64,000 nucleotides of DNA, from contig JAFMKB010000004.1 in NCBI GenBank assembly GCA_017853205.1, positions 1-64,000 of the forward strand, written 5' to 3'. The notes under the pieces are model-generated. The model ran no database searches. It was not told the origin of the DNA and saw only the letters and a program-made list of their open reading frames with translations. Shown here one piece after another: positions 2,252 to 8,343 of the stretch. The position numbers were made by a program, and so were the translations under genes. Position 1 is the stretch's first letter; each line of letters begins with the position of its first letter. This DNA comes from Gammaproteobacteria bacterium (GTDB lineage: Bacteria > Pseudomonadota > Gammaproteobacteria > Pseudomonadales > Pseudohongiellaceae).

Positions 2252-3946
2252 ATGGCAGGGGCCAATAACATTATGGATAGATCCAACCAGTCCGAGGTGC
2301 TTTGGTCTGCCCAGTCACTTATGCGGTCGCTAACGAGTATGATTGATGTGGCGTTCTCAGAGGTTCGGCATCGATGTGTCGATCGAGAAAGCGGGCGCCT
2401 CAACGCTGCGTTGCTCGATGAGAATCAGCAAGTGAGTTACGAGCTAGCCTTTGTGGTGGCCGAACTCGCAGCAACTAGTGCGCTGGTATCAAAAGCAGAA
2501 TTCGGCGGCGAACTGGAGACTCTTGTTGCTTTGGCGCAGTGCTCATGCGCACTCAATGCTGCGCAGTCGAGACTACTGCCAATCGCCGACGAATGTGGAC
2601 TCGATAGGGATGAGCTATGCGGTTTCTTTAATCAGCAGTCGCTCGTAGCGCTTCAAACTAAATTTGGATCGAGCAAAGCGCTCGCTCGGTTAGGTGAGAG
2701 ACTCTGCGCTACGGAAATACAGAGGCTGCCTTCTGTACTTGATACCGACAAAGAGATGATGCGCGGAACGTTCGAACGTTTCGCCAACGAAATAGTCGCT
2801 CCAAGAGCGGAGGCCATCCATCGTCAGGACTTAGATATTCCCGATGAAATATTAATCCCCGCTGCTGAACTCGGTTGCTTTGGGACCTGTATTCCAGAGC
2901 GATTTGGCGGGCTGCAACCGGATGATAAGCCCGATAGTCTGAGCATGATTGTCGTAACCGAAGAATTGTCGCGGGGTTCTCTTGGCGCGGCGGGAAGTCT
3001 TATTACGCGTCCAGAAATAGCGGCGCGCGCGCTTCTTTCAGGGGGAACGGATGAGCAACAGCAAAAATGGTTGCCTAAACTTGCCGCAGGAGAAACGCTG
3101 TGCGCTATTTCGATCACAGAGCCCAATACAGGATCCGATGTCGCCTCTGTGGCACTGCGAGCTACCCGCACCGAAACTGGCTGGAAGCTCAATGGAGCAA
3201 AAACCTGGTGTACTTTCGCAGGACGATCTGAGCTTTTAGTCGTATTGGCGCGCACTGAGGGTGACAGGGATCTTGGCTATCGCGGTTTGAGCCTCTTTCT
3301 CGTCGAGAAACCAGCATGTGCGGGGCACGAGTTCACTGTCGAGCAAGACGGCGGTGGCAGGCTGAGTGGACGCGCTATCGCGACTTTAGGCTATCGTGGT
3401 ATGCATTCTTTCGAGTTAGCATTCGATGAATTCATTGTGCCCGAATCAGCTTTGCTAGGAGGCGAGGCGGGGCTCGGTCGGGGTTTTTACTACACGATGG
3501 CAGGGTTCGCCGGCGGGCGCATCCAGACGGCCGCGCGCGCTACCGGACTCATGCAAGCCGCGCTCGAAAAGGCGATGAGCTATGCGCGTGAACGCAGCAC
3601 GTTCGGGACACCGCTTGCTAGCTACCAATTAATTCAAATTAAAATTGCAAAGATGTTTGCGACAGTTTCAGCGTCGCGACAATTTTCCTATGATGTTGCC
3701 GCATTAATGGACGAGGGTGCGGGTCAAATGGAGGCGAGTTTGGTAAAATTGTTCAGTTGCCGCGCCGCCGAAATCGTGACCCGCGAAGCAATGCAGATAC
3801 ATGGCGGTATGGGTTATGCCGAGGAAATGGCAGTCAGCCGTTTTTTTGTTGATGCAAGAGTGCTCTCAATTTTCGAGGGGGCCGAAGAAGTGCTCGCGCT
3901 CAAAGTTATCGCGCGCGAATTAATTGAGAACGCGAAAGTAATTTGA
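2252..3946 (+). CDS. Acyl-CoA dehydrogenase with N-terminal extension, (2S)-methylsuccinyl-CoA dehydrogenase (Mcd)-like
   Basis: 564 aa; ~160-aa extension ahead of the ACAD core; TEPNTGSD, GYRGLSLFLVEKP, LGYRGMHSFEL, QIHGGMGYAEE. Arrangement and motifs resemble Mcd of the ethylmalonyl-CoA pathway. Start could be 2273. Confidence 0.75.
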   Translation: MAGANNIMDRSNQSEVLWSAQSLMRSLTSMIDVAFSEVRHRCVDRESGRLNAALLDENQQVSYELAFVVAELAATSALVSKAEFGGELETLVALAQCSCALNAAQSRLLPIADECGLDRDELCGFFNQQSLVALQTKFGSSKALARLGERLCATEIQRLPSVLDTDKEMMRGTFERFANEIVAPRAEAIHRQDLDIPDEILIPAAELGCFGTCIPERFGGLQPDDKPDSLSMIVVTEELSRGSLGAAGSLITRPEIAARALLSGGTDEQQQKWLPKLAAGETLCAISITEPNTGSDVASVALRATRTETGWKLNGAKTWCTFAGRSELLVVLARTEGDRDLGYRGLSLFLVEKPACAGHEFTVEQDGGGRLSGRAIATLGYRGMHSFELAFDEFIVPESALLGGEAGLGRGFYYTMAGFAGGRIQTAARATGLMQAALEKAMSYARERSTFGTPLASYQLIQIKIAKMFATVSASRQFSYDVAALMDEGAGQMEASLVKLFSCRAAEIVTREAMQIHGGMGYAEEMAVSRFFVDARVLSIFEGAEEVLALKVIARELIENAKVI

Positions 3947-4000
3947 CAGCAACGTCGCGAGCCTTGCAGCAAAAATGCCATCAATTCGGGATCCCCACTA

Positions 4001-5215
4001 ATGCAAAATTTACTGAAAGGACTTCGCATCGTAGAAGGAAGTGCTTTTATTGCAGCGCCCTCTGGAGGAATGACGTTAGGCCAATTGGGCGCGGATGTCA
4101 TTCGCTTTGATCAGATCGGCGGCGGCATCGACTACCGTCGCTGGCCGATAACAGAGCAGGGCAAGAGTCTTTATTGGCATAGTCTCAACAAAGGTAAGCG
4201 TTCGATAGCAGTAGATTTTCGCAAACCCGAGGGCCGTGAGCTGCTCTCGCGACTGATATGCGCACCAGGCGCCGATGGGGGGCTTTTTCTCACGAATTTC
4301 CCCGCGCGCGGTTGGCTTTCCTATGATGCGTTAAAGCGAAGGCGCGAAGATCTCATCTACCTGAATCTAACCGGCGATCGCCACGGCGGCAGTGCGCTGG
4401 ATTACACCGTGAATGCGCGCGTCGGAGTCCCATTTCTTAACGGCGACGGCGTCACTCCTCTAAATAGTGCACTGCCAGCCTGGGACGTGATCGCAGGGCA
4501 GCAGATCGCGCTCGGGCTTCTGGCTGCGGAGCGTCATCGTAGCCGAACCGGGGAAGGGCAAATGATCACTCTTGCGCTTGCCGATGTCGCGCTTGCGACC
4601 ATGGGTCACCTTGGCTACCTCGCGGAGGCTCAGATGAATGAAAACCAGAGACCGGCTATGGGTAATCACATATATGGAACCTTCGGTCACGATTTCGTGT
4701 GTGCCGACGGAGAACGAGTGATGATTGTCGGTGTAAGCCCAAATCAATGGCAGGCAATCGTGAAGGTTACTGATTGCGCTAACAGTGTCGCCGAACTTGC
4801 CTTCGAACTTGGCCTTAACTTCGATAAAGAAGGCGACCGATTTGCTGCAAGAGAAAAATTGCGATCTCTTTTTGAACCCTGGTTCGCTGCACGCAGTAGT
4901 AAACAGGTGCACGTCGCTCTCGAAGCCGCGGGCGTCTGCTGGGGTCCCTATCAAACTGTTAAACAGTTAGTGAAAAACGACGCCGAATGTTCAACCGATA
5001 ATCCCCTTTTCTCATCGATCAATCAGCCCGATATTGGGTGCTTACTCACGCCCTCCCAGCCGCTAAACTTTACGGGGCTCGAGAGTACCGAGCCGAAGCC
5101 CGCGCCGCGCTTGGGTCAACATACCGACGAAATACTTAGCGAACTACTGGAGATGAGTTCGGGGGAGATCGCTGCTTTGCATGATGCGAAAATCGTGGCT
5201 GCGGCGAGTAGCTAA
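4001..5215 (+). CDS. CaiB/BaiF family CoA transferase, mesaconyl-CoA C1-C4 CoA transferase (Mct)-like
   Basis: VEGSAFIAAPSGGMTLGQLGADVIRFDQIGGGIDYRRWP, LNKGKRSIAVDFR, FPARGWLSYD, APRLGQHTDEIL; close to remembered Chloroflexus Mct. Confidence 0.8.
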   Translation: MQNLLKGLRIVEGSAFIAAPSGGMTLGQLGADVIRFDQIGGGIDYRRWPITEQGKSLYWHSLNKGKRSIAVDFRKPEGRELLSRLICAPGADGGLFLTNFPARGWLSYDALKRRREDLIYLNLTGDRHGGSALDYTVNARVGVPFLNGDGVTPLNSALPAWDVIAGQQIALGLLAAERHRSRTGEGQMITLALADVALATMGHLGYLAEAQMNENQRPAMGNHIYGTFGHDFVCADGERVMIVGVSPNQWQAIVKVTDCANSVAELAFELGLNFDKEGDRFAAREKLRSLFEPWFAARSSKQVHVALEAAGVCWGPYQTVKQLVKNDAECSTDNPLFSSINQPDIGCLLTPSQPLNFTGLESTEPKPAPRLGQHTDEILSELLEMSSGEIAALHDAKIVAAASS

Positions 5216-5239
5216 AGACAACATTAAAGAGTGAGAGAG

Positions 5240-6922
5240 ATGTCGACAAACGAAGTAAACGAGCAGGTATTAGCGGCAGGCAATGAAAGCGGCGAGGTTT
5301 TCGCTTTGCTTACCGAGGCGGCTAAGCACTGGCCGGAACGAGCAGCTGTTACTTATCAAGGTTCCACCCAGACATGGCGTGAAACGTTGCTGCGCTGCCG
5401 GGCACAGGCCAGCGTGTTTGCACAGTCAGGTGTCGAGCGCGGTGATAGGATCGCTTATCTCGGTTTCAACTCGAATGTGTGTTTTGAAGGCTATTTCGCC
5501 CCCTCAGCAATTGGCGCAATATTTGTTCCGCTCAATTTCCGCCTGGCCATCGGCGAGTTGATTGAATGTCTTGATGATTGCACGCCACGAATTTTGCTCT
5601 GCGAGCCAGCGTTCTATAGCCAAGCCGTGACATTGTTAAACGCCTGTGCGAGCGTCGAACATATTTTTGTTACTGGCGATCCAGCTGAGTTCGATGCAAC
5701 GAGTGCTAACGGGGTCGAGATCGACGGAGCTGTCCAACCCTTACCAAGTGGAATGCGTTCGCTCGAGAGATGCATTGCTGAGACAGTAGCAGCGAACGCG
5801 TTTGTTGACCTACGGCCGAGCTCGTTTGACGAAACGCTAATCCTTTTCTACACCGGTGGTACAACCGGACGCTCGAAAGGAGTTATGCTCAGCAACAAGA
5901 ATTTCCTGTGTAATACCACGGGCTCTGTGCCGCTTTATAAAATGCAGGATGGCTGGTGTTTCCTCATCGTAGGCCCACTTTTTCATATTGCAGCAGGCGC
6001 ACGCATTTTTAGCTGCGCGGTGCTTGGTGGTCATGCGGTAGTTTTGCCGAAATTCGATGTTCCTGACGTATTAGCAAGCATTGCAAGCTATCGAATCAAC
6101 TCGGCTACGCTTGTTCCGACCATGTTTCAAATGCTTATCGACCACCCGCTTTTTCCGAGCGCTGATCTTTCTTCAATGCAGATGGTAGCCTCTGGTGCTG
6201 CACCAATGCCAATGGCATTGCAGCATCGCGTTATCGAGGCGTTTTCTGGCATCAATCTCTATCAAACCTACGGGATGACCGAGGCGGCGCCCATCGTCAC
6301 AAGTCTCGACTCCCAGTATCACGTTGTCAGCGGTCCTGGTTCTGAGAAATTAGGCTCGGTTGGCAGGCCAGCGCCGCATGTGCAGCTGCGCATTATCGAC
6401 GAAGAGGGCGCTGACCTTCCCATAGGGCAAACCGGCGAAGTGCTTGCGCGCGGCGACAATATTATGACTGGCTATTGGAATTTGCCCGAGCAAACTGCAG
6501 TTGCCTTAAAAGACGGCTGGTATCACACAGGTGATGCCGGCTATCTCGACGCCGAAGGGTTTTTGTTTCTCGAGGGTCGCGTCAAAGACATGATTGTTAG
6601 CGGCGGTGAAAATATCTACCCGATAGAGATAGAGAATGTGCTATCGAGTCATCCCGCGGTTCATCAGTGCGCAGTTATCGGCATTCCTCACGAAACTTGG
6701 GGAGAGGCGGTGCATGCGGTTATTCTCCTCGAAGACTCGGAAAGTAAACCGCCGACAGAGCGTGAATTGATCACCTATTGCCGTGAAAGAATTGCTTCTT
6801 ACAAGTGTCCGGTGAGTGTTAGTTTTAGGAGTGAGCCGATGCCACTCTCGCCTATAAACAAAATTCTAAAGACCGAGCTTCGCAAGCCCTTTTGGGAAGG
6901 GCGATCGAGCGCGCTTGTCTGA
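5240..6922 (+). CDS. AMP-binding acyl-CoA synthetase
   Basis: LFYTGGTTGRSKGVMLSNKN, YQTYGMTEAAP, GWYHTGDAGYLD, GRVKDMIVSGGENIYPIEIE. GTG at 5231 is an alternative start. Confidence 0.93.
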   Translation: MSTNEVNEQVLAAGNESGEVFALLTEAAKHWPERAAVTYQGSTQTWRETLLRCRAQASVFAQSGVERGDRIAYLGFNSNVCFEGYFAPSAIGAIFVPLNFRLAIGELIECLDDCTPRILLCEPAFYSQAVTLLNACASVEHIFVTGDPAEFDATSANGVEIDGAVQPLPSGMRSLERCIAETVAANAFVDLRPSSFDETLILFYTGGTTGRSKGVMLSNKNFLCNTTGSVPLYKMQDGWCFLIVGPLFHIAAGARIFSCAVLGGHAVVLPKFDVPDVLASIASYRINSATLVPTMFQMLIDHPLFPSADLSSMQMVASGAAPMPMALQHRVIEAFSGINLYQTYGMTEAAPIVTSLDSQYHVVSGPGSEKLGSVGRPAPHVQLRIIDEEGADLPIGQTGEVLARGDNIMTGYWNLPEQTAVALKDGWYHTGDAGYLDAEGFLFLEGRVKDMIVSGGENIYPIEIENVLSSHPAVHQCAVIGIPHETWGEAVHAVILLEDSESKPPTERELITYCRERIASYKCPVSVSFRSEPMPLSPINKILKTELRKPFWEGRSSALV

Positions 6923-6923
6923 C

Positions 6924-7601
6924 CTAGGTCGTCCATCCCCCCGCAAGCGGGATCAGCTGTCCGACCATGTGGGTGCAGTGTTCACTCGCGAGATAGGCGG
7001 CGAGTTCCGCGGTTTCGGAAGGCGCGCCGACTTTATTGGTCGGGACATTGCGTTTCACGTGCTCAATGAATTTAGCCTGATCGAGAACATCGTCGGGATA
7101 ATAAGTGTCATTGTTAACATAGTTTTGTGCAATCGCATTGACTTGTATGCCGCTTCGGGCCAGTTCGAGTCCAACCGCTTTAATAAAGCCATTCTGCGCG
7201 CCGCGCGCCGCGCAGTACGCCGCGTTATTCGCGATGCCTTTTAAGGGCGCTGCGCTCGTGACCGCGATTATTTTACCGCTCTGGCGTTCGAGCATCTGTG
7301 GAGTTACTGCACGAACAAGATACATTAGCGGGTCTACTAAGCGTACGAATAATCGCTGCCAGTTGGCGTCATCTATCGCATGTACCGGACCGGTCATCGG
7401 CGGTTCAGCAAGATTCGCTACTAAGATATCGATGCGTCCGGCTTCTGCGATTACACGATCAACCTCGGCATTACTCGTGAGCGGAGAGTCGTCTTCGATA
7501 ACGTCGATAGACAGTTGTCTGAACTTCGTTGCGATAGCGCGTCCCATATAGCGGTCTGCGCAGGTGATTAATGCCCGACGTGCGGGCGTAGTGGATGTCA
7601 T
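6924..7601 (-). CDS. SDR-fold protein with halohydrin dehalogenase (Hhe-type) signature motifs
   Basis: T-x4-Y-x-G (TCADRYMG) replaces the Gly-rich cofactor motif; S-x12-Y-x3-R (SAAPLKGIANNAAYCAAR) replaces S-Y-K; further HheC-like AIAQNY...YYP, HVKR, GQLIPLAGG. Confidence 0.75.
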   Translation of the reverse strand: MTSTTPARRALITCADRYMGRAIATKFRQLSIDVIEDDSPLTSNAEVDRVIAEAGRIDILVANLAEPPMTGPVHAIDDANWQRLFVRLVDPLMYLVRAVTPQMLERQSGKIIAVTSAAPLKGIANNAAYCAARGAQNGFIKAVGLELARSGIQVNAIAQNYVNNDTYYPDDVLDQAKFIEHVKRNVPTNKVGAPSETAELAAYLASEHCTHMVGQLIPLAGGWTT

Positions 7602-7663: not shown

Positions 7664-8284
7664 CTAGCTCACCCTGTTCTTTTCAGCAAGCAAGTGCTTT
7701 ACAAATTTTTCAAGCGTCTCATAGGGCTGGCAGCCCACTACAGCGAGGTCGTTGGCATAAAATGTAGGTACGCCAGTCACGCCAACCTCGCGCGATCGCG
7801 CCCAATCATCATCGACCTTGGTAGAGAAACTGCGCTCAGTCAGAACGGTACGCGCTGCGCCGCTGTCGAGTCCAACTGATTCGGCGATGGCAATGAGCGC
7901 ATCAATATCGCTGATGTTAATGGCGTTGACAAAGTAGGCACGATAAAGCGCCTCGTGAATGGCGTCACCACCGGTCTGCGTGTCAGCCCAGGCACCGAGT
8001 TCCTGTGCGAGCCGGCTATTATAAGTATGCGTGCGCTCGCCGTAGTCAAGACCAGCTTCCGCCATAAGGCTCTTGAGCCTCTGGCGGATAGGCTCGATGT
8101 CTCGTCCCGCGAACATTTCGGCTAATGAACGTCCTTCGGCAGGGGTGTCTGGATGCAGCGGGAAGTGAACCCACTGAATTTTGACGGGGTAATTCGTCTT
8201 CAGTTTTTCAATACTCACGGTACTGAGGTAACACCAGGGTCAAACGTAATCGGTGAAGACGTCTAGTTGAATAATGTTGGACAT
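7664..8284 (-). CDS. DsbA/FrnE-family oxidoreductase, candidate selenoprotein (UPWC active site, in-frame TGA at 8240-8242)
   Basis: From ATG at 8284 with upstream GGAG: MSNIIQLDVFTDYV-(TGA)-PWCYLSTVSIEKLKTNYPVKIQWVHFPLHPDTPAEG... The track ORF starts downstream of the TGA at a GTG (8218). Confidence 0.8.
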
Positions 8285-8343
8285 GTAGCGCTCCGACTGA
8301 GTGTTAGGCGTTGTTATCAAACCAACATTGACTGTATCAAACT

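Follow-up and report, generated by a model that had tools for sequence, protein, structure and literature searches.

In-frame UGA codon and conserved SECIS hairpin of a predicted FrnE-type selenoprotein gene in OM182 Gammaproteobacteria

Results

A FrnE-type reading frame interrupted by a single TGA

The window, a stretch of 64,000 nucleotides, lies on contig C55 of a genome assembly of 2.54 Mb with a completeness of 99%. On its minus strand, the frame beginning with the ATG at 8284 reads MSNIIQLDVFTDYV, TGA, PWCYLSTVSIEKLK and ends at the TAG in 7664-7666, with 191 sense codons between the two stops (Table 1). An earlier note, made from the letters of the sequence, had described this frame as open through a single TGA that falls on the first Cys of a CPWC motif. 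Both observations stand: the TGA is the only in-frame stop of a frame that gives 206 residues if it is read, and the aligned residue of FrnE homologues is that Cys. A scan of the window for further long frames interrupted by a TGA gave no second one in which a redox motif could be recognised by eye.

Table 1. Coordinates of the features of the predicted selenoprotein gene and its partner gene in the window
Feature	Position	Strand	Description or basis
Predicted Sec-containing FrnE/DsbA-family CDS	7664..8284	(-)	206 aa plus TAG stop; ATG 8282-8284
In-frame TGA, predicted codon of selenocysteine 15 at the start of UPWC	8240..8242	(-)	orthologue codon comparison
TGT codon, resolving Cys18 of UPWC	8231..8233	(-)	C18 invariant in the alignment; Cys in 56/56 Sec-type sequences
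GGAG, probable Shine-Dalgarno	8291..8294	(-)	6 nt upstream of the ATG; seen in the sequence
bSECIS hairpin	8208..8226	(-)	stem UCAGUAC/GUAUUGA, 7 bp; loop CGUGA, 8215-8219; comparison and folding
Partner gene, SDR-fold predicted halohydrin dehalogenase	6924..7601	(-)	starts 62 bp after the Sec-gene stop

As the note had anticipated, standard ORF calling sets the start at GTG 8218, so that the active site is cut off. This automatic choice speaks for a short product that starts at the GTG, lacks CxxC and leaves the upstream frame untranslated, but such a product is extremely improbable. The segment LDVFTDYV-U-PWC is conserved in 48 genomes and matches the Cys homologues, and the GTG itself lies within the conserved hairpin and is replaced by GTA or GTT in some relatives, which would abolish the start.

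Conservation of the TGA codon across orthologues

Orthologues were searched for in 98 related genomes. In 48 genomes of the same genus (47 relatives and the window genome, with identities of 58-92%) an intact orthologue was present, and all 48 have TGA at exactly the same codon, a placement well outside what chance would produce. Neither another codon at this position nor another internal stop was present in these 48 orthologues. Two matches were listed with an extra TAG, which in one genome (G060) is the terminal stop. According to named records (OM182 bacterium BACL3 and OM182 bacterium MED-G28), the clade corresponds to OM182 Gammaproteobacteria. In the alignment of Sec-type and Cys-type homologues that the note had proposed, TGA in the genus stands against TGC or TGT in 43/43 orthologues recovered outside it (44-59% identity), which come mostly from Alphaproteobacteria (Rhodospirillales, SAR116), together with one Betaproteobacterium and a few Gammaproteobacteria. 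The aligned codon encodes Cys in more distant FrnE proteins and Ser in weakly similar proteins of the isomerase type.

Downstream of the UGA, dN/dS values calculated against near relatives were about 0.2, 0.07 and 0.09, and purifying selection on the sequence 3' of the TGA is strong. These data bear on the possibility that the TGA arose by nonsense mutation or sequencing error in a decaying Cys gene. Decay does occur at this locus: in genome G010 (contig C185, 20986-21420) the copy carries a further stop and has lost the active-site Cys, and it is an example of a real pseudogene. Against decay in the gene studied here stand the 48 assemblies that have the TGA precisely at the nucleophile codon and no other internal stop, the strong selection downstream, and the conserved hairpin. 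The same TGA in separate assemblies of 47 related genomes speaks against a base error, and since dN is far below dS after the TGA and every intact relative has only one internal stop, with a decayed copy solely in G010, the gene is not a pseudogene. The decay explanation, to which we give next to no probability, is thus already refuted by conservation.

Two further observations were made in this comparison. In G010, the start of the partner SDR gene beside the decayed copy looks intact. In a Cys-type FrnE homologue of another family (genome G063, contig C20, about 3675-4307), a TGA replaces the Trp codon (CP-TGA-C). This TGA might stem from a base error or a nonsense mutation, or might mark a Sec residue at an unusual position; the genome encodes selA.

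A conserved hairpin follows the UGA

Since an Rfam search of the window returned no family, the SECIS element was tested by comparison. Counting the U of the UGA as 0, nucleotides 16-22 pair with nucleotides 28-34, and the loop CGUGA has G and U at its second and third positions. Among 56 distinct orthologues, synonymous identity at codons +5 to +11 has a mean of 0.93, compared to 0.40 +/- 0.14 at 97 other conserved codons, and this is the most conserved seven-codon window of the gene at the synonymous level. All seven stem pairs are kept in 55 of the 56 distinct Sec-type sequences, as opposed to 1.9% (maximum 9%, 200 runs) after randomisation of synonymous codons. The seven-pair stem is found in 0/57 Cys homologues. 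Over the hairpin region, the mean energies are -5.9 versus -1.9 kcal/mol. Within the loop, bases 1 and 4 (8219 and 8216), each at the third position of its codon, for Thr and Val respectively, covary synonymously as C-G, U-A and A-U around an invariant G-U, although this covariation represents few independent events on the tree because the rows with U-A are related.

The energy calculated for the hairpin depends on the length folded, with -5.8 kcal/mol for the hairpin, -6.9 for 48 nt and -9.8 for 60 nt from the UGA, and its z-score against dinucleotide shuffles is -1.1. Folding energy alone is unconvincing for this hairpin, whereas the codon-level conservation is convincing.

The bacterial SECIS model, as given in a 2026 review (PMC13188914), comprises a stem of 4-16 bp, a loop of 3-9 nt at 16-37 nt from the UGA, a G in the first two loop positions with G or U as the next base, pairing of two bases inside the loop, and an MFE of at most -7.5 kcal/mol. 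With the consensus drawn there (PMC13188914, Fig 2A), the hairpin shares a 7-bp stem, a 5-nt loop and 20 nt between UGA and loop, as well as a second loop base that is G and has U after it, and the pair within the loop. It differs from that model in that the hairpin alone lies above -7.5 kcal/mol, and about 60 nt have to be folded before the limit is reached. A stem-loop after the UGA had been proposed in the earlier note, and this part holds; the stem drawn there does not. The CUCA/UGAG stem with loop GUACCG suggested there is broken in 6 of the 56 distinct orthologues and shows no covariation, and the stem of Table 1 lies one base later and is longer, with 7 instead of 4 bp. Viral contigs gave no exact match to the Sec/SECIS pattern.

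Selenocysteine machinery

The four genes whose presence the note had suggested to check, selA, selB, selC and selD, are all encoded in the genome. On contig C37, selA (552 bits), selB (350 bits) and selC (67.4 bits with Rfam RF01852; called by ARAGORN as tRNA-Sec with anticodon TCA) lie within about 20 kb of each other, and selD (264.8 bits) is found on contig C8. There, selD is part of a 753-residue open frame in which it is apparently fused to an N-terminal part resembling pyridine-nucleotide oxidoreductases. G025 and G056 are genomes of one contig each, on which selA and the UGA gene occur together, and this settles the worry about binning. In 8 genomes of the genus carrying the UGA gene, 6 of them less than 90% complete, selA was not found. 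Since selB is above the cut-off in 4 of these 8, missing assembly is the likeliest explanation for the undetected selA.

A further reading is that an amino acid other than Sec is inserted at the UGA, for instance Trp, through a reassigned genetic code or through near-cognate readthrough. Nothing was found in favour of this reading, although a full-length product would result from any readthrough. Other genes of the window end normally at TGA, such as the acyl-CoA dehydrogenase gene with its TGA in 3944-3946, the Cys homologues always have Cys at the aligned residue, and the genome has both the complete Sec machinery and a SECIS-like hairpin. We regard decoding as an amino acid other than Sec as having a negligible chance of being correct.

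Protein family and predicted fold

The protein matches Pfam DSBA (PF01323) over residues 6-195 with E=6e-33, and no NCBIfam model scored above its cut-off. It would belong to COG2761, which we take to be the FrnE family. In a search of solved structures it matches Deinococcus FrnE (PDB 5cnw/5cp1, E=3e-25). In an AlphaFold2 model (pLDDT 95, pTM 0.91), the DSBA thioredoxin-fold domain spans the whole length and superposes on FrnE 5coh with a TM-score of 0.92, and lower matches were obtained with 2-hydroxychromene-2-carboxylate isomerase (TM 0.76) and kappa-class glutathione transferase (TM 0.66-0.71). The FrnE-like fold is thus a high-confidence prediction, and the structure matches bear out the proposal of a DsbA/FrnE-like oxidoreductase in the note.

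In the model, Sec15 of the motif U15-P16-W17-C18 directly precedes the first catalytic helix (residues 16-31), which is the position of the nucleophile in the thioredoxin fold. G171, V172 and P173 (GVP) are invariant in the alignment, and Pro173 is expected to be the cis-Pro opposite Sec15. No signal peptide was seen by eye, and the protein is probably cytosolic. With FrnE of Deinococcus radiodurans (5cnw, 5coh, 5cp1) the protein shares the fold, 31% identity and the position of the CPWC motif; it differs from it in having Sec instead of Cys and a length of 206 aa, compared to the 260 aa of the crystallised FrnE chain.

Origin of the Sec form

A tree of 84 rows was rooted on FrnE proteins with Cys. 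In this tree the Sec rows group in a single clade (SH-aLRT 99), and it takes no more than one change of state, from Cys to Sec. Since the Sec form is a single clade inside Cys relatives, we infer one Cys-to-Sec switch, which would have taken place in the ancestor of the OM182 genus, where the Sec form has been kept. A class-wide draw of 369 genomes contained no further relative at E<=1e-40, and therefore the Sec form looks confined to the OM182 genus within the sampled genomes.

Discussion

A predicted selenoprotein gene of the DsbA-like kind

The sequence itself shows the UGA codon, the Sec machinery, a conserved hairpin, orthologues with Cys and the operon. On these grounds the gene is almost certainly a genuine selenoprotein gene, with Sec at the UGA of a FrnE-type UPWC oxidoreductase that arose by one Cys-to-Sec switch. 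SelB carrying Sec-tRNA(UCA) would bind the mRNA hairpin, and selenocysteine would be inserted at the UGA to give a FrnE-type (COG2761/PF01323) thiol-disulfide oxidoreductase. The selenolate of Sec15 would then attack a disulfide or another electrophile, and the resolving thiol of Cys18 would release it. Judging by homology, a Sec15 nucleophile with Cys18 as the resolving thiol is most likely the chemistry of the protein.

Selenoproteins of this kind are already known. A DsbA-like selenoprotein (COG2761, UXXC) was described in 2005 from 9 sequences among Sargasso Sea reads (PMC1088965), 'DsbA 1' was represented by 63 sequences in GOS, with a higher abundance in marine samples (PMC2398784), and a 'DsbA-like protein form 1' (PF01323) is listed in the 2026 review, where the functions of most such selenoproteins are called unclear (PMC13188914). 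As far as the available text of these three sources describes them, the OM182 protein has in common with them the domain family, the UxxC motif, the marine origin and a SECIS-like hairpin after the UGA. The published sequences are environmental reads, and the same text does not give their host lineage, operon or SECIS evolution. The OM182 gene is likely orthologous to the published DsbA-like reads (AACY01178397, NIP15863.1), with which it was compared by description only. What is new is that the gene is assigned to OM182, that its SECIS is resolved, and that it stands in a conserved operon with a predicted halohydrin dehalogenase. Neither taxonomic assignment nor SECIS covariation nor operon was found in the literature searched, whose scope left out most subscription papers. 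In that literature, no paper combined 'selenoprotein' with OM182 or with 'halohydrin dehalogenase', and nothing relevant on the structure of the SelB-SECIS loop was retrieved.

Throughout this marine clade, ORF calling truncates the Sec gene and hides the active site. The clade is also a clean natural case of a single change from Cys to Sec, for which dozens of orthologues of both types are at hand, and its SECIS has a loop pair that covaries at synonymous sites.

The partner gene and a possible functional unit

The best solved relatives of the SDR-fold partner are 8xxb, HheB (4zd6) and 7b73, which is presumably HheD2 and hence the source of the D-type label of the partner gene. The partner protein of the window contains both recognition motifs of halohydrin dehalogenases, T-x4-F/Y-x-G (here T-x4-Y-x-G) and S-x12-Y-x3-R (PMC4989007), which occur in 31/35 and 34/35 called partner ORFs, respectively. 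These signature motifs are shared with HheD2 and HheB, and the activity of the partner is predicted from them. An SDR gene is located next to or near the Sec gene, on the same strand, in 35 Sec-type loci; it usually starts a few to about 200 bases past the Sec-gene stop, but a few gaps are larger, and two of these come to nearly 4 kb. None of the Cys orthologues of the sample adjoins this SDR family. From the spacing, the Sec gene and its partner would be co-transcribed as an operon. Also conserved nearby in Sec-type loci are genes for a CaiB-type CoA transferase, an acyl-CoA dehydrogenase and a divergent TPR protein.

This neighbourhood suggests that the Sec-FrnE protein and the predicted halohydrin dehalogenase might work together as a single functional unit, located next to a cluster for acyl-CoA catabolism. 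The selenolate of this unit would handle an electrophilic or halogenated intermediate, for example by reductive dehalogenation or epoxide/thioether chemistry, and not general disulfide exchange. We consider such a unit unlikely, and the link of the Sec protein to halohydrin/epoxide metabolism, drawn from the conserved neighbourhood, is speculative. If true, it would be a role for a selenoenzyme that is undescribed for the DsbA-like family in the literature searched, and the conserved halohydrin dehalogenase neighbourhood offers a testable hint to the substrate of DsbA-like selenoproteins.

In the window, genes for an acyl-CoA dehydrogenase, a CaiB-type CoA transferase and an AMP-dependent CoA ligase occupy 2252-6922 on the plus strand, convergent to the Sec operon, and most Sec-type loci also have the dehydrogenase and the transferase gene. 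In two genomes (loci L105 and L124), the Sec gene and the partner are separated by an opposite-strand gene of about 1,200 residues, which at L105 lies at about 586-4246 nt past the UGA.
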